In this document: in pieces, positions 8,443 to 37,978 of the stretch
Position numbering within the stretch: the first letter of the stretch is position 1
How the letters are laid out: every line of letters starts with the position of its first letter
Source: Nocardioides donggukensis
GTDB lineage: Bacteria > Actinomycetota > Actinomycetes > Propionibacteriales > Nocardioidaceae
Reading direction: 5' to 3'
DNA: 64,000 nucleotides
Assembly (NCBI RefSeq): GCF_014842875.1
Contig: NZ_JACYXZ010000005.1
Coordinates: 62,001-126,000 of the forward strand
Notes under the pieces: model-generated
Told to the model about the DNA's origin: nothing
The model's input: only the letters and a program-made list of their open reading frames with translations
Database searches by the model: none
Made by a program: the position numbers and the translations under genes

Positions 8443-11400
8443 TTGAGTGTGACCGACTGGTCCCAGGAGCTGACCGAGCCGGGGTGGGGCGACGGCCCCG
8501 CCGCCTACGAGCCCGGCGACGCCCCCCGCGGCGACCGCACCCCGCCGCAGGACAACGCGGCCGAGCAGAGCGTCCTCGGCTCGATGCTGCTCAGCAAGGA
8601 CGCCATCGCCGACGTGAGCGAGCTGCTCCGCGGCACCGACTTCTACCGGCCGGCCCACGAGGTGATCCACGACGCGATCATCGACCTCTACGGCCGTGGC
8701 GAGCCCGCCGACCCGGTCACCGTCGCCGCCGAGCTGCAGCGCAAGGGCGAGCTCCAGCGGGTCGGCGGCGCGCCGTACCTGCACACGCTCTCGGCCAACG
8801 TGCCGATCGCCGCCAACGCCGGCTACTACGCCGAGATCGTGCACGAGAAGTCGATCCTGCGCCGGATGGTCAGCGCCGGCACCAAGATCGTCCAGCTCGG
8901 GTACGCCGGCGAGGGCCAGATCGACGCCGTGGTCGACGAGGCCCAGGCCGAGGTCTACAAGATCACCGACAAGCGGGCCGCGGAGGACTACTCGCCCCTG
9001 GCCGACATCATGGAGGGCGTCCTCGACGAGATCGAGGCGATCGGCAACCGGGACGGCGGCATGTACGGCGTGCCGACCGGCTTCGCCGACCTCGACGACC
9101 TGACCAACGGCCTGCACTCGGGCCAGATGATCATCGTCGCCGCCCGCCCGGCCATGGGGAAGGCGCTGGCGCTCGACACCCCGCTGCCCACCCCCACCGG
9201 CTGGACCACGATGGGGGCGGTCCGGGTCGGCGACGACCTGGTGGACGCCGCCGGCCGGCCGACCCGGGTGCTCGCCGCCACCGAGGTCATGGAGGGGCGC
9301 CCCTGCTACGGCGTGTGCTTCTCCGACGGCACCTGGATCGTGGCCGACGAGCAGCACCTCTGGGCCACCACCACCCCCTCCGCGCCGGCCGGCCGGCGCG
9401 CCGTGCGGACCACCGCCGAGCTCGCCGCCAGCCTCGACCAGGTGCACACGATCACCCTCCCGGACGGCTCGGTCGTCAAGGTCGAGGGCGTCATCACGGT
9501 GCCGAGCGTGCCGGTGCGCTGCGTGCAGGTCGACAACCCCGAGCACCTCTACCTCGCCGGCCCGGGCGGGATCCCCACCCACAACTCGACGCTGGCGCTC
9601 GACCTGTGCCGCGCGGCCTCGATCCACAACAACATGTCCAGCGTCTTCTTCAGCCTCGAGATGAACCGCTCCGAGATCACGATGCGGCTGCTGTCGGCCG
9701 AGGCGAAGGTGCCGCTGAACCACATCCGCAACGGCAACATGACCAACGAGGACTGGGACCGGCTGGCCCGCAAGATGGGCGAGGTGTCCGGCGCCCCGAT
9801 GTTCATCGACGACTCCCCGAACATGACGATGATGGAGATCCGCTCCAAGGCGAGGCGCCTGAAGCAGAACCACGACCTGCGGCTGATCGTCATCGACTAC
9901 ATGCAGCTGATGACCTCGGGCAAGAAGGTCGAGTCCCGCCAGCTCGAGGTCTCGGAGTTCTCCCGGCAGATCAAGCTGCTGGCCAAGGAGCTCGAGGTCC
10001 CGATCATCGCGCTCTCGCAGCTCAACCGTGGTGCCGAGCAGCGCTCGGACAAGCGGCCGATGATGAGCGACCTCCGCGAGTCGGGGTGCGTCACCGCCGA
10101 GACCCGGGTGATGCGCGCCGACACCAACGCGGAGGTGACCATCGGGGAGCTGATGAGCTCCGGGGCACGCGACGTGCCCGTCTGGGCCCTGGACGACCGG
10201 CTGAAGCTGGTCCCGCGCACCATGACGCACGCCTTCCCCAGCGGCACCAAGCAGGTCTTCGAGCTCACGCTCGCCTCCGGTCGGCGGATCCAGGCCACCG
10301 CCAACCACCCCTTCCTGACCTACGACGGGTGGATGCCACTCGGCGAGCTGGCACCCGGGGCGCGGGTCGGGTCCGTGCGGCACGTCCCGCCACCCATGCA
10401 GGTCACCCCGAGGGACGAGGACGAGATCGTCCTGCTCGCCCACATGCTCGGCGACGGCTCCTTCGTGAAGCGGCAGCCGATCCGCTACGCGAGCATCGAC
10501 GAGGCCAACCTGTCGGCCGTCTCCGAGGCGGCGTCGCGGCGGTTCGGGATCAGGTCGGTCCGGGACGACTACCCCGCCGCCCGGGTCACGACGCTCCGGC
10601 TCCCGGCTCCCTACCGCCTGGCCCGTGGCCGCCGGAACCCGATCGCGACCTGGCTCGACGACGACGGGCTCTTCGGCCTGCGCAGCCACGAGAAGTTCGT
10701 GCCCTCCTGGGTCTTCGGCCTGCCGAAGGAGCAGGTGGGCCTCTTCCTGCGCCACATCTGGGCGACGGACGGCTCGGTCGGCTTCGACGCGAAGCGACGC
10801 GTGGGCCGCGTCTACTACGCCTCCACCAGTCGGCGGCTCGTCGACGACCTGGCTCGACTCCTCCTGCGCCACAACGTGTTCACCCGGATCAAGCGCGTCC
10901 GCAAGCCCGGCTACCGGGACTGCTGGCACCTCTACGTCTACGGCGCCGAGAACCAGCTGCGCTTCGTCGACGAGATCGGGGTCCACGGTGCGCGTGGCGA
11001 GAAGGCGCGCGAGCTGGCGGACGGGCTGCGTGAGGTCCAGGTCAACACCAACCTCGACACGGTTCCCGTCGAGGTCTGGGGTCGGGTCCGGGAGGCGCTC
11101 ACCGAGCGGCGGATGACCCACCGCGAGTTCGCCTCGGAGATGGGCACGAGGTTCTGTGGCTCGACGATGTGGAAGCACGCCCCGAGCCGGCAGCGGCTGG
11201 CCCAGGTCGCGACCGTGCTCCACGACGCCGATCTCGAGGTGATGGCCACCAACGACGTGTACTGGGACTCGATCACCGCGATCGAGCCGCTGGGCGAGCA
11301 GGAGGTGTACGACGCCACCGTGATGGGCGTCCACAACTTCGTCGCCAACGGCATGCCCATCCACAACAGCCTCGAGCAAGATGCCGACATGGTGATCCTG

Positions 11401-31111: not shown

Positions 31112-31280
31112 GGGCCCTCCTGCCGGCCAGTGTCAGGCCATTCTCCCGGCCATTCTCGCAGCGATCCGCGGGGCGCCTGTGGGGGCGGCGTAAGGCTTTC
31201 GTCACCTCGCGGGAAGCATGTGGCGCACCGACCGGGTTACGGTGCACAGACGGGGCGACCACGACAGAGGACGGACGGCG

Positions 31281-32222
31281 ATGTCTGGGACGGTGACCGA
31301 CCGCCTGACCTGGGTGCTGGCACCCGCTGTGGAGGACGGACCCCGATCGCACGCGATCGCGGCGGCCGGCCTGCGGATCCTCGTGGGCGTGATGTGGCTC
31401 TACAACGTCTCCTGGAAGCGGGCCCCCGACTTCGGGCAGGAGGCCGAGAACGGGCTGTACAAGTTCACCAGCTTCGCGGTCAGCGACCCGGTCTTCCCTC
31501 CGTTCAGCTGGGTGGTCGAGAAGCTGGTCCTGCCGAACTTCGAGATCTTCGGCTGGGGCGTGCTGGCCTCGGAGACCGCGCTCGCGGTGCTGCTGCTCAG
31601 CGGCGCCTTCGTGCGGGTCGCGGCCCTGCTCGGCGTGGCCCAGTCGGTGGCGATCGCCCTCTCGGTGACCGTGGCCCCGCACGAGTGGCCCTGGTCCTAC
31701 TACCTCATGATCGGTGCCCACCTGCTGATCCTGTTCAGTGCCGCGGGACGGTACGCCGCGGTCGACGCGGTGCGAGCGGGCCGCGGCGGCGTCCGGCTGG
31801 GCACGGTCTGGGGCGGCCTGGCCGTCGTCGCCGGACTGATCGCCGCGGCCGTCTCGCTGGGCGACCCGTTCGCGGCAGCCGGCACCAACCTCGGCACCTC
31901 CGACTTCTCGGTGGGCATCGGGCGCTACAACCTGCTCGGCGGTGTGCTGCTCGTGGCGGTCGGCGTGCTGCTGCTCCTCGCGGCCCGGGGCGGCCGCGCC
32001 GCGCTGGCGTGGGCGGCGGCCGGCCTGGGCGCGCTGGGTGCGCTCTCCCTCTACGCCCAGCTGGGCTTCACGGACCCGATCCTCGGCGGCTCACCCACGA
32101 CCGCCGCGGTCTACCTCGCCTGCGCAGCGGTCGCGGCCGGCCTCGCCCTCGCGGACCGAGGCGCCCGGCCAGGTGCCCGGCCCGCGGTCGACTCCGAGCA
32201 TTCGGACCGGGCGGCGCCTTGA
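31281..32222 (+). CDS. DoxX/DoxD-like membrane protein, first gene of chalcogen cluster
   Basis: 313 residues, ~7 helices. RILVGVMWLYNVSWKRAPDFG and SWVVEKLVLPNFEIFGWG match the DoxX/TQO-small-subunit family. DoxD is the quinone-reducing subunit of archaeal thiosulfate:quinone oxidoreductase; other DoxX proteins have redox partners or unknown roles. The TGA overlaps the TTG start of the next gene (32219-32222), tying it to the TusA-like, DsrE-like and radical SAM genes. A membrane redox role in the cluster is inferred. Confidence 0.78.
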   Translation: MSGTVTDRLTWVLAPAVEDGPRSHAIAAAGLRILVGVMWLYNVSWKRAPDFGQEAENGLYKFTSFAVSDPVFPPFSWVVEKLVLPNFEIFGWGVLASETALAVLLLSGAFVRVAALLGVAQSVAIALSVTVAPHEWPWSYYLMIGAHLLILFSAAGRYAAVDAVRAGRGGVRLGTVWGGLAVVAGLIAAAVSLGDPFAAAGTNLGTSDFSVGIGRYNLLGGVLLVAVGVLLLLAARGGRAALAWAAAGLGALGALSLYAQLGFTDPILGGSPTTAAVYLACAAVAAGLALADRGARPGARPAVDSEHSDRAAP

Positions 32223-32542
32223 TCGTCGTCGACGGCGGTGACCGCGCCTGCGGGGAGCTGCTGCTCGTCCTCGCCGGGCGAGCGCGAGGTCTCCCGGCCG
32301 ACTCGCCGGTTCGGCTCATCGCCACCGACCCGGCCGCCGCCATCGACCTCCCCGCCTGGTGCCACCTGACCGGCCACCACTTCGCGGGCCGCGGCGTGCT
32401 GGCCGACGACGGCCGGCCCTACTACGACGTGGTCACCTCCGCCTCGGGGCGGCGATCCGACCCGGCCCGACCCTGGCGGCTGGCCCCCGCCACCGCAGTC
32501 CCGTCCGAGCAAGAGTCCGACAACCGAGAGGAACACCCATGA
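32219..32542 (+). CDS. TusA-like sulfur-relay protein with CG in place of CP
   Basis: 107 residues. TTG start overlaps the DoxX stop by four bases; no in-frame ATG exists. VVDGGDRACGELLLVLAGRA, VRLIATDPAAAIDLPAWC and HLTGHHF match the TusA/SirA fold, where a Cys in C-P-x-P carries a persulfide (or selenide) between enzymes. Here C11 is kept but followed by Gly rather than Pro. The ~30-residue tail is disordered. The stop overlaps the ATG of the DsrE-like gene (ATGA, 32539-32542). Probable cytosolic S/Se carrier; carriage is inferred. Confidence 0.75.
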   Translation: MIVVDGGDRACGELLLVLAGRARGLPADSPVRLIATDPAAAIDLPAWCHLTGHHFAGRGVLADDGRPYYDVVTSASGRRSDPARPWRLAPATAVPSEQESDNREEHP

Positions 32543-32898
32543 ACGGCCTCGTCATCAACCTCACCCACTCCGTCGACGACGTCGACCGCACCAGCGTCGC
32601 CATGGTCGTCGCCGGCGCGTCGGTCGCCTCGGACCAGAAGACCACGGTCTTCCTCTCCAGCGAGGGCACGCGCCTGGCTGCCAAGGGGGTCGCCGAGGAC
32701 CTCCACGAGGAGGGCTTCGCCCCCATGTCCGAACTCGTGTCCAACTACGTCGCCGCCGGCGGCACGTTCCTCGTGTGCAGCCCGTGCGCCAAGAAGCGGG
32801 ACATCGGCGAGGACGACCTCATCGAGGGCGCCAGTGTCGTCGGAGGGGCCACGCTGGTCGCCCTCCTCGCCGACGGCGCCGCCTCGCTGTCCTTCTGA
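32539..32898 (+). CDS. DsrE-family sulfur-relay-like protein
   Basis: 119 residues. Rossmann-like DsrE/TusD fold: LVINLTHSVDDVDRTSVAMVV start, TTVFLSSEGTRLAAKG, then FLVCSPCAKKRDIGEDDL with C80 and C83 as a CxxC. DsrE proteins pass persulfide sulfur to TusA-like partners, and the neighbouring gene encodes one. DsrE and TusA domains are fused in YedF of selenium-metabolism loci, a parallel to this adjacency. GAGAGGAAC ribosome site; 17 bases before the radical SAM gene. Confidence 0.82.
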   Translation: MNGLVINLTHSVDDVDRTSVAMVVAGASVASDQKTTVFLSSEGTRLAAKGVAEDLHEEGFAPMSELVSNYVAAGGTFLVCSPCAKKRDIGEDDLIEGASVVGGATLVALLADGAASLSF

Positions 32899-32915
32899 TC
32901 CCCCGGGAGAAGCCC

Positions 32916-34058
32916 ATGACCGGCACGACCGGCTCCACCGCGCCCACCGGCGCCGACCAGGCGCGGCAGCTCGAGCAGCTCCCGGTCGCCACCGAGTACG
33001 ACGGCGGCGACATGGACTGCGGCAGCGGGCTGCTGCTCGCGATCACGTCCCGGATCCGCGCGATCGACCCGGGCGAGACGATGCTGCTGCACACCACGGA
33101 GCCCTCGGTGCTCGCCGACCTGCCCGCCTGGGCCAGGCTCGCCGGGCACGAGCTCGTCGGCACGACCAACGACGAGGGCGACGGGGCCTGGCGGCTCTGG
33201 GTGCGCCGGGGGGAGGCTCGGACCGCCGGGTCGCGGGCTCCCGCACCGGAGGTGGAATACTCCTCCGGCGCACCGGCGCCGCTGGGCACCCGGCTCTGGC
33301 TGTACTCCAACTTCCACTGCAACCTGGCCTGCGCCTACTGCTGCGCCGGCTCCTCACCGCAGGCGGAGGCCCGGCTGATGCCGGTGGAGATGGCGGCCAG
33401 CGCGGCCACCGAGTTCGCGGCCCAGGGCGGACGGGAGCTGCTGGTCACCGGCGGCGAGCCGTTCCTGCACCCCGAGCTGGGGGCCCTGGTCGCGGCCACC
33501 TCGGCGGAGGTCCCGGTGACCCTGCTGACCAATGCCATGGTGTTCGAGCGGGGCCGGCGTCGCGAGACGCTCGAGTCGTTCGACCGCGACCGCGTGGTGC
33601 TGCAGATCAGCCTCGACTCCGTCGGTCCCGGCCTGCACGACCGGCAGCGGGGCAAGGGCTCGCACGCCAAGGCGATGTCCGGGATCCGGCTCGCCAGTGA
33701 GCTCGGGTTCACCGTGCGGGTCGCGGCGACCTACACACCGGAGGACGCCGGCGAGGCCGGCGACCTGCACCGGGCGCTGGGCGCACTCGGCATCGCCGAG
33801 GAGGACCAGCTGATCCGGCCGGTCGCCCACGAGGGGTTCGCCGAGGGCGGGGTCGAGATCTCCCTGGACACCGTCGAGCCCGAGCCCACCCTGACCGCCG
33901 ACGGTGCCTGGTGGCACCCCGTGGGTGTGACCAACCGCCACCTCAAGGTGGCCGACGCCCCGTTGCCCGTCGCCCACGTGCTCGACGTCATGCGCGACGT
34001 CGTCGAGGTCCAGCAGGCAGCCGGCGACCAAGGACGGACGGTATTCCGATGCACCTGA
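32916..34058 (+). CDS. Radical SAM protein with N-terminal TusA-like domain
   Basis: 380 residues. Residues ~25-85 repeat the TusA-like pattern (C35 in DMDCGSGLLLAI; LADLPAWARLAGHELVG), parallel to the stand-alone TusA-like protein two genes upstream. The radical SAM core starts at ~125: C135-NLA-C139-AY-C142 binds the 4Fe-4S cluster, and VTGGEPFLHPELGALV is the SAM-binding GGE motif. The C-terminal ~90 residues are unassigned and end FRCT; I see no clear SPASM cysteine array. The last 10 bases overlap the binding-protein gene. The likely job is a radical modification using a sulfur or selenium carrier; the substrate is unknown. Confidence 0.85.
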   Translation: MTGTTGSTAPTGADQARQLEQLPVATEYDGGDMDCGSGLLLAITSRIRAIDPGETMLLHTTEPSVLADLPAWARLAGHELVGTTNDEGDGAWRLWVRRGEARTAGSRAPAPEVEYSSGAPAPLGTRLWLYSNFHCNLACAYCCAGSSPQAEARLMPVEMAASAATEFAAQGGRELLVTGGEPFLHPELGALVAATSAEVPVTLLTNAMVFERGRRRETLESFDRDRVVLQISLDSVGPGLHDRQRGKGSHAKAMSGIRLASELGFTVRVAATYTPEDAGEAGDLHRALGALGIAEEDQLIRPVAHEGFAEGGVEISLDTVEPEPTLTADGAWWHPVGVTNRHLKVADAPLPVAHVLDVMRDVVEVQQAAGDQGRTVFRCT

Positions 34059-34990
34059 CCCCCACCTCCCCGCTGCGCGGCTCCCTCGGCAGACGCGGCT
34101 TCCTGCTCGGCTCGGCGGGGGTGGTCCTGCTGGCCGCCTGCGGTGGCACCGACGACGGCGGGGATGCGGCCTCCGCCGGCCCGCTGGGCATCTCGGCGAT
34201 CCCGGACCAGGATCCGGAGCTGCTCAACCGGCTCTACCCGGACGTGGCCGCGCGGTTCGCGGACAGCACCGGGCTGGAGGTGACCTACACCCCGCTGACC
34301 GACTACACGGCGGTGGTCCGGGCCTTCGAGGTCGGCGACATCCACCTGGCCTGGATGGGCGGGCTGACCGGAGTCCAGGCACGGTCCCGGGTGCCCGGCT
34401 CCGAGGCGATCGCCCAGCGCGACATCGACGCCGACTTCCACAGCCTCTTCATCGCGAACACCCGGTCGGGGTTGGAGCCGTTCACGGAGATCGACGGCCT
34501 CACCGCCCTCGCGGGGCACAGCCTCACCTTCGGCTCGGAGACCTCGACCTCCGGCCGGCTGATGCCGCAGTTCTTCATGCAGGAGGGCGGGCTCGACGAG
34601 GCCGACCTCAAGGGACAGCCCGGCTTCTCCGGCTCCCACGACGCGACGATCGAGGCGGTGGCCTCGGGCAGCTTCGAGGTCGGCGCGGTGAACGAGCAGG
34701 TCTGGACGGCAACCGAGGAGGCCGGCGAGGTCGACCTGAGCGAGGTCCAGGTGTTGTGGCGCACCCCCGGCTACGCCGACTACCACTGGCTGGCCCGCCC
34801 GGACCTCGACGACACCTTCGGCGCCGGCACCCTCGACAAGGTCACGGAGCTGCTGCTCGGACTCGATGCGGCGAACGAGGAGGACGCCGGCATCCTCGAG
34901 CTGTTCGGCGCCGAGACCTTCGTGGCGACCGAGAACGCCAACTACGACCAGATCGAGGCGGTGGCCATGGAGCAGGGGCTCCTGGCGTGA
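34049..34990 (+). CDS. Tat-type lipoprotein, PhnD-related ABC binding protein ('putative selenate' clade)
   Basis: 313 residues. Twin-Arg signal GRRGFLLGSAG plus lipobox LAAC (C31): folded export and lipid anchoring. ISAIPDQDPELLNRLYPDV, DIHLAWMGGLTGVQARS, FGSETSTSGRLMPQFF and GKPGFSGSHDA-like text agree closely with the phosphonate-type binding-protein clade annotated as a putative selenate receptor and often found by selD. That specificity is a genomic inference from other species, not proven. No selD is in this window. Sulfur, phosphite or phosphonate anions remain alternatives. Confidence 0.82.
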   Translation: MHLTPTSPLRGSLGRRGFLLGSAGVVLLAACGGTDDGGDAASAGPLGISAIPDQDPELLNRLYPDVAARFADSTGLEVTYTPLTDYTAVVRAFEVGDIHLAWMGGLTGVQARSRVPGSEAIAQRDIDADFHSLFIANTRSGLEPFTEIDGLTALAGHSLTFGSETSTSGRLMPQFFMQEGGLDEADLKGQPGFSGSHDATIEAVASGSFEVGAVNEQVWTATEEAGEVDLSEVQVLWRTPGYADYHWLARPDLDDTFGAGTLDKVTELLLGLDAANEEDAGILELFGAETFVATENANYDQIEAVAMEQGLLA

Positions 34991-35733
34991 GCCCCGGCGC
35001 GCCCGTCGTGCGGCTCCGCGGCGCCGGGCGCACGTTCGGAGCGACCGCCGCCCTGCAGGACACCGACCTCACGGTGCACGCCGGCGAGCGGGTCGCGCTG
35101 CTCGGCGCGAGCGGTGCCGGCAAGAGCACGCTGCTCTCGCTGCTCAACGGATCCCTCCGTGCGACGTCCGGCACGGTCGAGGTGCTGGGGCAGGAGATGA
35201 CCGGGCTGGCCTCGGGCCGGCTGCGCGCGCTGCAGCGCCGGATCGGCACCGTCCAGCAGGGCCTCGACCTGATCGAGCAGGTCCGGGTGGTGCACAACGT
35301 CAACGCCGGTCGGTTGGGCCACTGGAGCACGCCGCGGGCGCTGTCGACGTTCCTGTGGCCGCGGGAGTCCTCGGAGGCCCAGCGGGCCCTCGACCGGGTC
35401 GGCCTGGACTGGGCGCTGTTCGAGCGCACGGAGCGGCTCTCCGGCGGTGAGCGGCAGCGGGTGGCGATCGCCCGGCTGCTGGTCCAGCGCCCGGAGCTGG
35501 TGCTCGCCGACGAGCCGGTCTCGAGCCTGGACCCGACCCGGGCGGCGGAGATCCTGCGACTGCTCCACGAGCCCGAGGAGGCCCGGGCCCTGGTGGTCAG
35601 CCTGCACCAGCCGGAGCTCGCCCGCCGGCACTGCACCCGCGCGGTGGGGCTGCGGGCGGGCCGCGTGGTCTTCGACGTCGCCGCCGACCAGATCGACGAG
35701 TCGCTGCTCACCGAGCTGTACGAGCTGACGTGA
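34987..35733 (+). CDS. ABC transporter ATP-binding protein (PhnC-like)
   Basis: 248 residues. Walker A LLGASGAGKST, signature LSGGERQRVAIARLL, Walker B LVLADEPVSSLD, H-loop LVVSLHQPELA. GTG start within GTGA overlapping the binding-protein stop (34987-34990). Energises the importer; partner of the fused permease. Confidence 0.93.
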   Translation: MSPGAPVVRLRGAGRTFGATAALQDTDLTVHAGERVALLGASGAGKSTLLSLLNGSLRATSGTVEVLGQEMTGLASGRLRALQRRIGTVQQGLDLIEQVRVVHNVNAGRLGHWSTPRALSTFLWPRESSEAQRALDRVGLDWALFERTERLSGGERQRVAIARLLVQRPELVLADEPVSSLDPTRAAEILRLLHEPEEARALVVSLHQPELARRHCTRAVGLRAGRVVFDVAADQIDESLLTELYELT

Positions 35734-37478
35734 GCACCGCGCTCGACCGGCCTGCGGCTCCCGGCTCACCTCGCCCGACCGCCCGCCCGCGGGTGACCGC
35801 GCGGGTCGTGCTCGCCCGCAGGCTGCTGGCCGTGGCGATCGTCGTCCTACCGGTGCTGTGGGCCCTGCACCGGTCGTTCTCGGGCGGCACGGCCGTGGTG
35901 AACACCGGCGGGTTGCGGCTGCTCGCGGACCTCGGCGCCTCGGTGCTGGACCCGGCCCTGGCGCCGGACTTCCTCGCCCGGGTGGCCGACGCCGCGCTGG
36001 TGACGGTGGTCTTCGCCGCGCTCGGCACGGCCGGAGCCCTGGTGATCGGCGCCGCCGGCGGGCTGGTCCTCAGCGACATCGCCTGGTCCCGGCGGCCTGC
36101 CCCGTGGCTGCGAGGAGTCCGGCTCGTGCTGAGGGGCGCTCTCGTCGCGATCCGCTCGATCCACGAGGTCATCTGGGCGCTGCTGTTCGTCAGCGTGCTG
36201 GGGCTGGACCCGCTGGTCGCGGTGCTGGCGATCGCCCTGCCCTTCGGCGCCCAGACCGCCAAGGTGTTCAGCGAGACCCTCGACGGCGTCCCGCACGGCT
36301 CCCTGCTCGCGCTGCGCCATGCCGGAGCCCGGCCCGGGCCGGCGCTGGCCTACGGCCTGCTGCCCGGGGCGACCCCGCTGCTGCTGTCGTACTCGTTCTA
36401 CCGGTTCGAGTGCGCGATCCGCTCGGCCGTCCTCCTCGGTGTGGTGGGGATCGGCGGGCTCGGCCAGGAGCTGGTCGTCAGCCTGCAGTCCCGCAACTGG
36501 GACGAGGTGTGGACGCTGATCGGGGCGGTGCTGGTGCTCTCGGCACTGGTGGACGCCTGGAGCAGCAGGATCCGCGCGGACGTCTCGGTCGCGAGCTGCT
36601 CGGACTGGTCGGCCGGTGACGCGGCCCGGGCGACCCGGCCCTCCCCGTGGGCGCGCTGGTCGCTCGCCCTGCTGCCCCTGGTCCTGGTCGCGTCCTGGAT
36701 CGCCTCGGGGGTCTCGCTGGCCGGGCTCACCTCGGCCCGGACCCGCGACCTGACCGTGAGCCTGCTGGAGGACATGCTGCCGCCCGAGCTGCCGCCGGGG
36801 GGCGTGCCCGAGCTCTCCGGGGCGGTGCTCGACACCGTGGCGATGGCGGTCCTGGCCATGGTGCTCGCGGTCGGGATCACCCTGCTGGTGGCCCCGTGGG
36901 CGACCAGGCCGTGGTCCACCCGTGGCGGCACCGGCCCCGCGGGCGGCGGCGTGGCCGCGGGCGCCGTACGCCGGGTGCTGTGGATCGGCAGCCGGCTCCT
37001 GCTGCTGGTGCTGCGGTCGGTGCCGCCGCCGGTCTGGGCGGTCGTCGCGCTGCTCGCGCTGTTCCCCGGCGTGCTGCCCGGTGCGGTGGCGCTGGGGCTC
37101 TACACCGGAGGCATCCTCGGCCGGCTGGTCGCCGAGGCCTGGGAGAGCCTCGACCGCCGGTCCCTCGAGGCCCTGCTGCATGCCGGGGTACGCCGCCCGG
37201 TCGCGGCGGCCGCGGCCCTGACGCCGGCCTCGACGCACCACCTGGTCACGTTCACGCTGTACCGCTTCGAGATCTGCGTGCGGGACACCGCGGTGGTGGG
37301 CGTGGTGGGCGCCGCCGGCCTGGGCCGCCTGCTCACCGAGAACCTCGTCGCGTTCCGGTTCCCGGTGGTGGCCACCGTGCTGGTGGCCTCCTTCGGGGTC
37401 AGCCTCGCGAGCGAGGTCCTCGGCAGGCGGCTACGCGCCGCCCTGCGCGGGACTCAGGCGGCGCCGCGCGCCGGGTAG
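35730..37478 (+). CDS. Double-length PhnE-type ABC permease (two fused permease domains)
   Basis: 582 residues, roughly twice a normal PhnE. Domain 1 (~1-285) and domain 2 (~300-582) each contain a permease segment with the same coupling pattern: LRHAGARPGPALAYGLLPG..YRFECAIRSA and LLHAGVRRPVAAAAALTPA..YRFEICVRDTA. One polypeptide can therefore form the whole channel as a pseudo-dimer. GTG start overlaps the ATPase stop (GTGA). The last 25 bases overlap the convergent peroxiredoxin gene. Confidence 0.88.
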   Translation: MSTALDRPAAPGSPRPTARPRVTARVVLARRLLAVAIVVLPVLWALHRSFSGGTAVVNTGGLRLLADLGASVLDPALAPDFLARVADAALVTVVFAALGTAGALVIGAAGGLVLSDIAWSRRPAPWLRGVRLVLRGALVAIRSIHEVIWALLFVSVLGLDPLVAVLAIALPFGAQTAKVFSETLDGVPHGSLLALRHAGARPGPALAYGLLPGATPLLLSYSFYRFECAIRSAVLLGVVGIGGLGQELVVSLQSRNWDEVWTLIGAVLVLSALVDAWSSRIRADVSVASCSDWSAGDAARATRPSPWARWSLALLPLVLVASWIASGVSLAGLTSARTRDLTVSLLEDMLPPELPPGGVPELSGAVLDTVAMAVLAMVLAVGITLLVAPWATRPWSTRGGTGPAGGGVAAGAVRRVLWIGSRLLLLVLRSVPPPVWAVVALLALFPGVLPGAVALGLYTGGILGRLVAEAWESLDRRSLEALLHAGVRRPVAAAAALTPASTHHLVTFTLYRFEICVRDTAVVGVVGAAGLGRLLTENLVAFRFPVVATVLVASFGVSLASEVLGRRLRAALRGTQAAPRAG

Positions 37479-37978
37479 TCCGCGTCCTGGGCGAACTTCA
37501 GCCCGGCCAGCAGGTCGTCGATGGCGGGCCGGCCGAAGGGCATCGTCGAGACGTTGCTCCAGAACAGGCTGCCGTCGGAGTCGAGCACGAAGATGCCGGG
37601 CTCGTTGAAGACCGCCGGCTCGCCCTCCTTGATCGAGGTGGAGACGAACAGGCCCCACTCGCGGGCCGACTCCTCGGTCAGGCCGTGCGCGACCGGGAGG
37701 TCGGACAGGTGCCAGTCCTGCACCAGCTGCGCGCTGCGCTCGGGCGTCTCCATGCTGACCGCCACGACTCGGCCGACGCCGCCCTCGCGCAGGTCGGAGA
37801 GCCGGCGGTCCAGCTCGCCGAGCTGCTTGCGGCACACCGGGCAGTGCAGGCCGCGGAAGAAGACCACGACCGAGAACCGGCCGTCGGCGCCCGTGCCCAG
37901 CGCCAGGTCGTCGGTGCTGCCTCCGCCGGTGAGGGGGAGGTCGAGGACGGGTGTGGGGCGGGTGGGTGTGAGTGTCAT
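37454..37978 (-). CDS. AhpC/TSA-type peroxiredoxin-like protein
   Basis: 174 residues. Thioredoxin fold with CxxC C46/C49 in FFRGLHCPVCRKQLGELDRR, of the peroxiredoxin-like (AhpC/TSA_2) group. Likely a thiol peroxidase or disulfide reductase in the cytosol. Convergent with and overlapping the permease gene by 25 bases, so not in that operon. Confidence 0.85.
   Translation of the reverse strand: MTLTPTRPTPVLDLPLTGGGSTDDLALGTGADGRFSVVVFFRGLHCPVCRKQLGELDRRLSDLREGGVGRVVAVSMETPERSAQLVQDWHLSDLPVAHGLTEESAREWGLFVSTSIKEGEPAVFNEPGIFVLDSDGSLFWSNVSTMPFGRPAIDDLLAGLKFAQDADYPARGAA

Follow-up and report, generated by a model that had tools for sequence, protein, structure and literature searches.

A TusA- and DsrE-like carrier pair, a MoeX-related radical SAM enzyme and a PhnD1-type importer are encoded in one operon of Nocardioides donggukensis

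The stretch of Nocardioides donggukensis DNA analyzed here, a window of 64,000 nucleotides (nt) of contig NZ_JACYXZ010000005.1, harbors seven plus-strand genes (g1 to g7) at positions 31281-37478. They code for a DoxX-like membrane protein, two small carrier-like proteins, a radical S-adenosylmethionine (SAM) enzyme and the three components of an ATP-binding cassette (ABC) importer. Five of the six junctions are overlaps, of 4, 4, 10, 4 and 4 nt in gene order, and the sole gap, between g3 and g4, measures 17 nt (32899-32915). This reading of the DNA agrees with the gene architecture given in an initial annotation of the window, whose claim that the seven genes form one unit is also supported; the operon is almost certainly real. 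As read from the DNA, g2 starts with TTG, g3, g4 and g5 with ATG, and g6 and g7 with GTG. The features of the locus are as follows.

31190..31205, plus strand: promoter-region direct repeat GTAAG-N6-GTCAC with an 11-bp period, 32 nt upstream of TACGGT
31238..31243, plus strand: putative -10 hexamer TACGGT, read from the DNA
31281..32222, plus strand: g1, Rv1678/DoxX-like membrane protein of 313 amino acids, matching NF049986
32219..32542, plus strand: g2, TusA-like carrier of 107 amino acids with CGEL replacing CPxP and a TTG start, below the PF01206 cut-off
32539..32898, plus strand: g3, DsrE-family sulfurtransferase of 119 amino acids with Cys80-x-x-Cys83, over the PF02635 cut-off
32916..34058, plus strand: g4, radical SAM enzyme of 380 amino acids related to Rv1681/MoeX by NF049973 match and tree
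32985..33212, plus strand: TusA-like domain of g4, about residues 24-99, with Cys35, assigned by sequence similarity
33318..33344, plus strand: [4Fe-4S]/SAM motif of g4, C135-x3-C139-x2-C142-C143, invariant in 22/22 rows
34050..34052, plus strand: penultimate Cys379 of g4, invariant in 22/22 rows
34049..34990, plus strand: g5, PhnD1-type substrate-binding protein (SBP) with a lipoprotein-like start (judged by eye), TIGR04553
34987..35733, plus strand: g6, PhnC-like ABC ATPase with a GTG start, PF00005
35730..37478, plus strand: g7, double-length PhnE-type permease with a GTG start, TIGR01097

The radical SAM protein g4 belongs to that superfamily by its score against PF04055 (70.9 bits; cut-off 29.5) together with its Cx3Cx2C motif. 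Its best family model is NF049973, named for Rv1681 (moeX), at 346.4 bits and thus under the membership cut-off of 380. The sequence of g4 gives no backing to the molybdopterin label of moeX, with a score of 53.5 bits against MoaA (TIGR02666; cut-off 284.05). In an alignment of 22 relatives (A1), the four cysteines C135, C139, C142 and C143, the W332-W-H-P-V336 motif and Cys379 are invariant. In a wider set of 43, conservation of these four cysteines and of Cys379 is 90% or more, with Cys379 missing in L039_07 (loci and genomes are cited by our L and G numbers). An AlphaFold2 model of g4, with a predicted local distance difference test (pLDDT) score of 81.9, retrieved only general radical SAM relatives in a Foldseek search (SkfB, BlsE, SuiB, MoaA and viperin). 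The N-terminal domain scores 27.9 bits against TusA (PF01206), slightly under the cut-off of 28.6, and the N-terminal 100 or so residues of g4 resemble g2 (43% identity over 54 amino acids, E 5e-12). The description of g4 as a radical SAM enzyme with its own carrier-like domain is therefore supported.

The same kind of evidence defines the two carriers. g3 is a DsrE protein (PF02635, 49.7 bits; cut-off 22.7) whose closest structure is PDB 3mc3 (E 1.2e-10) and whose Cys80 and Cys83 are invariant in all eight aligned sequences. g2 scores 20.2 bits against PF01206, below the cut-off. The usual TusA motif is CPxP; its place is taken by CGEL in g2 and CGSG in g4, within a DGGD-x-x-CG stretch that both domains have, and the cysteine itself is retained. 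Cys11 and Cys48 of g2 are invariant in the three sequences aligned. In six carrier loci the short TusA-like frames escaped our gene caller; they were recovered by tblastn, and all six keep both cysteines. We thus find a carrier pair with conserved cysteines, as annotated, and carriers that by their sequence would retain persulfide chemistry, a property whose lack had been named as grounds for abandoning the initial hypothesis.

The membrane protein g1 is a member of the Rv1678 family (NF049986, Rv1678_C, 69.1 bits; cut-off 50), with a score against DoxX (PF07681) of 18.7 bits, under the cut-off of 23.6. The AlphaFold2 fold of g1 (pLDDT 86.9) had no PDB match at E <= 0.001; weak fold matches to vitamin K carboxylase were not used. 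The names TusA and DoxX, for which the Pfam scores are below cut-off, are based on relatives and on the resemblance between g2 and g4.

A scan of the genome_contigs set with g4 yielded 32 loci, in which genes were called with our own codon-model script and then clustered. Neighbors without a profile scan (rhodanese, CoA-disulfide reductase, the phosphoesterase part, SnoaL in L174, TlpA/CcdA in L064/L066) were named by eye or by cluster. We distinguish three layouts, named S, N and M in this report. Layout S, complete in 17 of the 32 loci and cut by contig ends in two more (L039 and L041), consists of a divergent class I methyltransferase gene followed by genes for the radical SAM enzyme, SBP, ATPase and permease; most loci have a DoxX-like gene after the radical SAM gene or elsewhere. 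Layout N (7/32) consists of TusA-like, DsrE and radical SAM genes with no adjoining importer, a DoxX-like gene being called in five of the seven. In layout M (2/32), genes for FadE16 and an SBP-like protein are divergent from the radical SAM gene. The other four loci are L042, with methyltransferase and radical SAM genes and no importer, L046 and L054, both cut, and L053, which is of another kind. Within the window's family, matches were found in 18 of 197 genomes, counting that of the window itself; further stretches from this family comprise nine of type M (L062 being cut before FadE16), three of type S (no permease was called in L066) and one of type N (L067). L014, on a 3-kb contig, was left unclassified, and L115 and L120 yielded no gene calls.

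TusA-like, DsrE and radical SAM genes occur together in nine loci, the window included; like the 17 complete S loci, this recurrence goes beyond a chance grouping. DsrE and the importer are combined in no other classified locus. The full order of seven genes was thus found once, with both of its halves recurrent: the window joins the S and N layouts. The possibility raised at the outset, that the synteny is unique to this genome, applies to the whole order and not to its halves, which recur elsewhere.

The two halves differ in history, as trees and median identities disagree between importer and enzyme. In a radical SAM tree of 45 rows, the window lies within the N group (support 92/87 for N plus window) as sister to L023 (100/99), and the S group forms one clade (100/98). 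L053, L063 and L052, divergent or short, were omitted from this tree, and L027 and L046 were dropped by a length filter (<=230 amino acids). In the SBP tree, the window protein lies in an unresolved crown with 22 S-type SBPs, separated from seven outgroup rows with support 100/100. The radical SAM enzyme of the window has a median identity to the S enzymes of 57.8%, versus 75.5% among the latter, and the corresponding window-S and S-S values are 71.9 and 69.0 for the SBP, 65.8 and 65.7 for the ATPase, and 64.5 and 62.5 for the permease. Either the importer was acquired from an S-type operon, or the radical SAM and carrier genes replaced an S-type enzyme, as these sequence comparisons suggest. 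That the same importer clade has been paired twice with the same radical SAM family favors a shared pathway.

The promoter region offers a further parallel. A GTMAN-N6-GTMAN repeat precedes the window operon and recurs in 9 of 22 methyltransferase/radical SAM intergenic regions (L046 omitted from the count), against a mean of 0.08 of 23 and a maximum of 2 in shuffled sets, and also in two of eight N loci; the count is weaker than it looks because the pattern was chosen post hoc, after the sequences had been viewed. A similar hexamer lies 32 to 34 nt away in four of the nine other repeat matches (L031, L034, L041 and L043), and four of the nine have none; the spacing is 6 nt in L044 and 32 nt in L027. 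An 11-bp repeat period is a feature of OmpR-type regulators.

The importer belongs to the clade to which it had been assigned: g5 scores 308.9 bits against TIGR04553, putative selenate SBP (cut-off 250), a model of the hypoth_equivalog kind in which "selenate" is a database label. Its score against the phosphonate SBP PhnD (TIGR03431) is 105 bits, below the cut-off of 261.1. g6 matches PF00005 (115.1 bits; cut-off 25), with 214.1 bits against TIGR02315, below the cut-off of 266.1, and g7 matches TIGR01097 over two stretches (274.5 bits; cut-off 216.7). The closest solved structure to g5 is that of Synechococcus PhnD1 (PDB 7s6g, E 2.6e-87). Of the eleven PhnD1 pocket residues, ten are identical in g5 (Y44, S124, T125, S126, H156, D203, Y204, D11, T65 and N174), and the eleventh, the water-holding S123 of PhnD1, is Thr in g5.

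Measured dissociation constants for PhnD1 proteins are 0.05-4.3 uM for phosphite and 7-182 uM for phosphate overall, the Synechococcus proteins binding them at 0.67-4.3 and 7.4-88 uM and Prochlorococcus PhnD1 at 0.05-0.12 and 55-182 uM, respectively (PMC10284923). X-ray data from the sulfur edge spoke against sulfate as the bound ligand (PMC10284923). The picocyanobacterial PhnD1/PhnC1/PhnE1 system, which has the pocket in common with g5 at ten of eleven residues, is co-located with tesA, and the section describing it mentions no radical SAM or carrier genes (PMC10284923). Since the ligand donates a hydrogen bond to the Asp corresponding to D203, a protonated oxyanion would be favored over selenate or sulfate. 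From this pocket similarity, a protonated phosphorus oxyanion of the phosphite or phosphate kind is somewhat likely to be the main ligand, and selenite, pyramidal like phosphite, is a possible one. Rv1680-like proteins with an SBP fold also adjoin radical SAM genes in L047, L048, L057 and L119. Those of L047 and L048 start without a signal peptide (alignment A2), and in L047, L057 and L119 the oxyanion pocket is lost, with His-Cys at the D203/Y204 positions; this type may perhaps be a cytosolic binding protein or enzyme.

The initial annotation had proposed a sulfur/selenium theme in which an imported oxyanion is reduced and passed by persulfide or perselenide carriers to a radical SAM step. 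In its selenium form, the importer would take up selenate or selenite, the carriers would hold perselenide and the radical SAM enzyme would insert selenium, selenite fitting better than selenate by its phosphite-like pyramidal shape. This reading, which takes support from the name of TIGR04553, now appears unlikely. In the window genome, neither selD (best match 72 bits; cut-off 125) nor selA (18.4 bits; cut-off 267.9) was found over cut-off. In the 19 genomes tested, out of 26 with loci, selD occurs in four of seven of the carrier type (N), a point for selenium, and in just 2 of 12 of the importer type (S). By this logic, selenium is not needed by the operon, and together with the PhnD1-like pocket these results leave the selenium theme unsupported. 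The wider clade tells another story: among the other genomes coding for TIGR04553-like SBPs, 20 of 23 have selD, versus 193 of 296 in the whole sample. Seven other SBPs over the cut-off share the window pocket in genomes that have selD, which favors a link between the wider clade and selenium; against this, selD lies at least 0.8 Mb away in the two of these genomes that are single contigs. Four genomes of family f18 have SBP and selD genes 3-13 kb apart, and in the other f18 genomes with both they are on different contigs. All four selD-near SBPs are below the TIGR04553 cut-off, and the three that we compared are about 30% identical to g5 and carry D244->Gly, N215->Glu and D53->Asn, the Gly replacing the Asp that accepts the ligand hydrogen bond. 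The main text of the PhnD1 study does not mention selenium and contains no selenium test of the protein (PMC10284923). The SBPs of L114, L117 and L118 (f18), 3-13 kb from selD and with pocket residues N, E and G, could possibly represent a true clade of selenium-oxyanion importers.

The surroundings of other DsrE genes bear on what the carriers deliver. Searching 391 genomes of the order with a DsrE profile returned three matches: the window, G595 and G071. In G595 (L135), TusA-like and DsrE genes are followed by a TusA domain fused to the core of a cobalamin-independent methionine synthase (MetE); the fusion scores 91.2 bits against PF01717 (cut-off 21), and the TusA relative of this locus reaches 33.3 bits against PF01206, over the cut-off. 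In G071 (L136), the neighbor of DsrE combines a TusA domain and a SnoaL-like part (PF12680, 23.3 bits, below the cut-off of 27), and L174 codes for a similar protein, its SnoaL part judged by eye. Among 396 genomes of the phylum, 26 had matches. Of the 30 phylum-wide matches, 15 regions were examined (L170 gave no DsrE call), and one of these, L166, also has TusA-like and DsrE genes together; by eye, a CoA-disulfide-reductase-like gene lies within two genes of DsrE in three of the 15, and the second DsrE gene of the window genome lies four genes from a rhodanese-like one. For most of the remaining DsrE genes examined, no TusA-like neighbor was called.

The presence of related carriers beside other TusA-domain proteins strengthens the idea that the carriers serve the enzyme. 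These sequences suggest a relay of sulfur to TusA-domain enzymes that can be exchanged for one another; the radical SAM enzyme would be one of these, and a relay of sulfur to g4 is probable. The L135 run (8602-10832), with TusA-like and DsrE genes and the TusA/methionine-synthase-core fusion, may itself be an S-methylation unit.

Sulfur might also be the whole story. The DoxX/DoxD protein would then be of the thiosulfate:quinone type, DsrE and TusA would carry sulfur, the radical SAM enzyme would thiolate a metabolite and the importer would merely feed phosphate. The short g1 relative in L040, which matches DoxD (PF04173, 36.1 bits; cut-off 22.7), fits this account, as do the rhodanese-like and CoA-disulfide-reductase-like genes seen near DsrE relatives and the set of TusA-like, DsrE and MetE-core genes. 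As it leaves unexplained why one importer clade pairs with the radical SAM family in two operon types of different history, we regard it as rather unlikely.

Our preferred reading is that of a carrier-fed radical SAM operon with an importer, which we put forward tentatively, as slightly short of an even prospect. Cys80 of the DsrE protein would take sulfane sulfur and hand it on to Cys11 of the TusA-like protein, which would load Cys35 in the TusA domain of the radical SAM enzyme. This enzyme would use its Cx3Cx2C cluster to cleave SAM, and either the 5'-deoxyadenosyl radical or a radical that it generates on a substrate would be joined to a heteroatom positioned in the active site, the conserved penultimate Cys379 serving as last relay or as anchor. 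The oxyanion brought in by the importer would be small, protonated and either tetrahedral or pyramidal, with a phosphite- or phosphate-like ion as the most likely candidate, and would act as co-substrate or heteroatom source; DoxX would link the pathway to the membrane quinone pool. Of the import-and-carrier hypothesis in the initial annotation, the passage from carriers to the radical SAM enzyme thus gains support, and selenium gives way to a pocket of the phosphite/phosphate kind.

The formation of a carbon-heteroatom bond is proposed by analogy with ArsS, a radical SAM enzyme that adenosylates arsenic in arsenosugar synthesis (PMC12159101). Because g4 scores only 50.3 bits against ArsS (TIGR04167; cut-off 300), the proposal is that g4 works like ArsS, not that it is one; we consider the formation of such a bond by the enzyme evenly balanced. 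Deeper relatives of g4, with a phosphoesterase-like N terminus (by eye) and a similar cysteine-containing C-terminal tail, point in the same direction. In all three loci, a glycosyltransferase-type gene of the "arsenosugar" model TIGR04283 lies within two genes of them (218.1, 212.0 and 176.0 bits; cut-off 182, so that two of three are over it). One locus also has a TIGR04282 match (163.1 bits; cut-off 134) and an MTAP-like gene (134.3 bits; cut-off 274.85).

L121:7893-9566, L122:1883-3709, L123:6839-8536: phosphoesterase-like/radical SAM fusions near arsenosugar-type glycosyltransferase genes

These neighbors could be taken to mean that the substrate is arsenic itself, with arsenate imported as a phosphate mimic, As(III) held by the DsrE and TusA thiols and the radical SAM enzyme adenosylating it as ArsS does; the pairing of methyltransferase and radical SAM genes in layout S recalls ArsM and ArsS. 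Besides the low ArsS score of g4, there is no arsenic gene among the seven, and the one S-type methyltransferase scanned (L037) matches general class I models only, so we hold an arsenic pathway to be very improbable. A more specific form of our preferred reading, that the enzyme makes the bond with an imported reduced oxyanion or that sulfur or selenium borne by the carriers traps its radical, is quite unlikely as it stands. In the first variant, by the same analogy, the 5'-deoxyadenosyl radical would add to imported phosphite and form a C-P bond. If true, either variant would give Actinomycetota, mycobacteria among them, a class of heteroatom nucleoside or sugar that is not yet described.

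Several observations weigh against a carrier-fed, importer-supplied enzyme. S-type operons lack an adjoining DsrE or free TusA gene, the TusA-domain cysteine is missing in nine aligned Nocardioidaceae radical SAM proteins of the FadE16 type, and two of that type from Solirubrobacteraceae have no TusA domain, so that a sulfur relay is not a general property of the family. Conversely, seven of eight carrier-type genomes tested have no TIGR04553 SBP over cut-off, and that of the eighth is 51% identical to g5; the importer is therefore not needed by most carrier-type enzymes. The window DoxX sorts clearly with neither half, its median identity to the S proteins being 59.3 versus 59.1 among them, and its identity to that of L023 being 67. 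The AlphaFold2 model of g4 gives the cluster loop a pLDDT below 50, too low to place Cys379. The tight phosphite binding of PhnD1 may be incidental, as the hosts are described as not growing on phosphite (PMC10284923). The absence of the SBP from most carrier-type genomes, the differing histories and the single occurrence of the exact order would also suit an importer captured by chance beside an unrelated carrier-radical SAM operon, with no shared pathway. The pairing of this importer clade with this radical SAM family in 17 loci, the start/stop coupling and the shared promoter pattern, albeit post hoc, make such a loose grouping improbable.

The initial statement that no description of this combination was known holds in part. 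NCBIfam catalogues the family, with models named for Rv1678 (NF049986), Rv1679 (NF049984), Rv1680 (NF049985) and Rv1681 (NF049973), and these names give no function beyond fold or enzyme class. The mycobacterial set, which we take to be ordered Rv1678 to Rv1681 in M. tuberculosis and which includes fadE16 and moeX, has a related radical SAM enzyme with the same cysteines and tail, a related DoxX-like protein and, as in the window, an SBP-fold protein adjoining the enzyme. It differs by FadE16, by the SBP-like protein, which in the L047 and L048 copies starts without a signal peptide and whose pocket is lost, and by the lack of any called TusA, DsrE or complete importer beside it. In print, moeX carries the annotation of a possible molybdopterin gene and is known as a urine antigen (PMC4202705), MoeX is enriched in proximity labeling with the M. 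tuberculosis metal-efflux protein PacL1 (PMC13043812), and drug-resistance association and expression change are reported elsewhere. These passages contain no tested function and do not mention this operon.

Other known systems overlap with the operon in part. The ArsS/arsenosugar set likewise has a radical SAM enzyme, and the TIGR04282/TIGR04283 genes near deeper relatives of g4 recall it; g4 differs by its score far below the ArsS cut-off and by its TusA domain. The YedF protein (DsrE-TusA) of selenium loci comprises the same two carrier types, and the window genome differs in having no selD over cut-off. sHdr sulfur-oxidation clusters likewise contain TusA, DsrE and radical SAM genes, together with Hdr and lipoate-binding proteins (PMC6067878). 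Among the seven window genes, to which this search was limited, there is no Hdr, lipoate-binding (lbpA) or ligase gene, and one radical SAM protein fused to TusA stands in place of two separate ones.

The window combination is a new variant of a gene set that is catalogued without a function. One testable unit ties together the role of the moeX-type radical SAM enzyme of actinobacteria, the cargo of TIGR04553/PhnD1 proteins, for which a selenate label stands against measured phosphite binding without phosphite use, and the question of what non-CPxP TusA/DsrE pairs deliver to. Among the loci seen here, only the window places the importer with the carriers and the enzyme in what is likely a single transcription unit, so that single-gene deletions can order the pathway.

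Some further neighborhoods were recorded. A minus-strand AhpC/TSA redoxin gene (37457-37978) was rejected as an operon member, being convergent and sharing no cluster with any other locus; it has a weak match to a SelL-related model (44.3 bits; cut-off 120). Elsewhere in the window genome (G000 contig 2), L128:7492-14118 carries DUF2064 (130 bits; cut-off 134), GT2, methyltransferase and epimerase genes, a weak sulfite-oxidase-like match and MTAP (381.5 bits; cut-off 306). Its themes are similar at a different genome location, and we do not claim the DUF2064/GT2/epimerase/MTAP cluster as part of the operon. Upstream of the carrier operon in L024 (2284-5146) are genes for TlpA/DsbE-like, CcdA-like (by eye) and DUF3179 proteins; these three clusters also adjoin the S-type loci L064 and L066, and the first two adjoin the M-type locus L058. 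Finally, a second radical SAM subfamily without the cysteine tail is paired with an AhpD-like gene, and DoxX adjoins it in three of four loci.

L124:7211-9158, L125:2480-4495, L126:7258-9269, L039:4589-6000: second radical SAM subfamily

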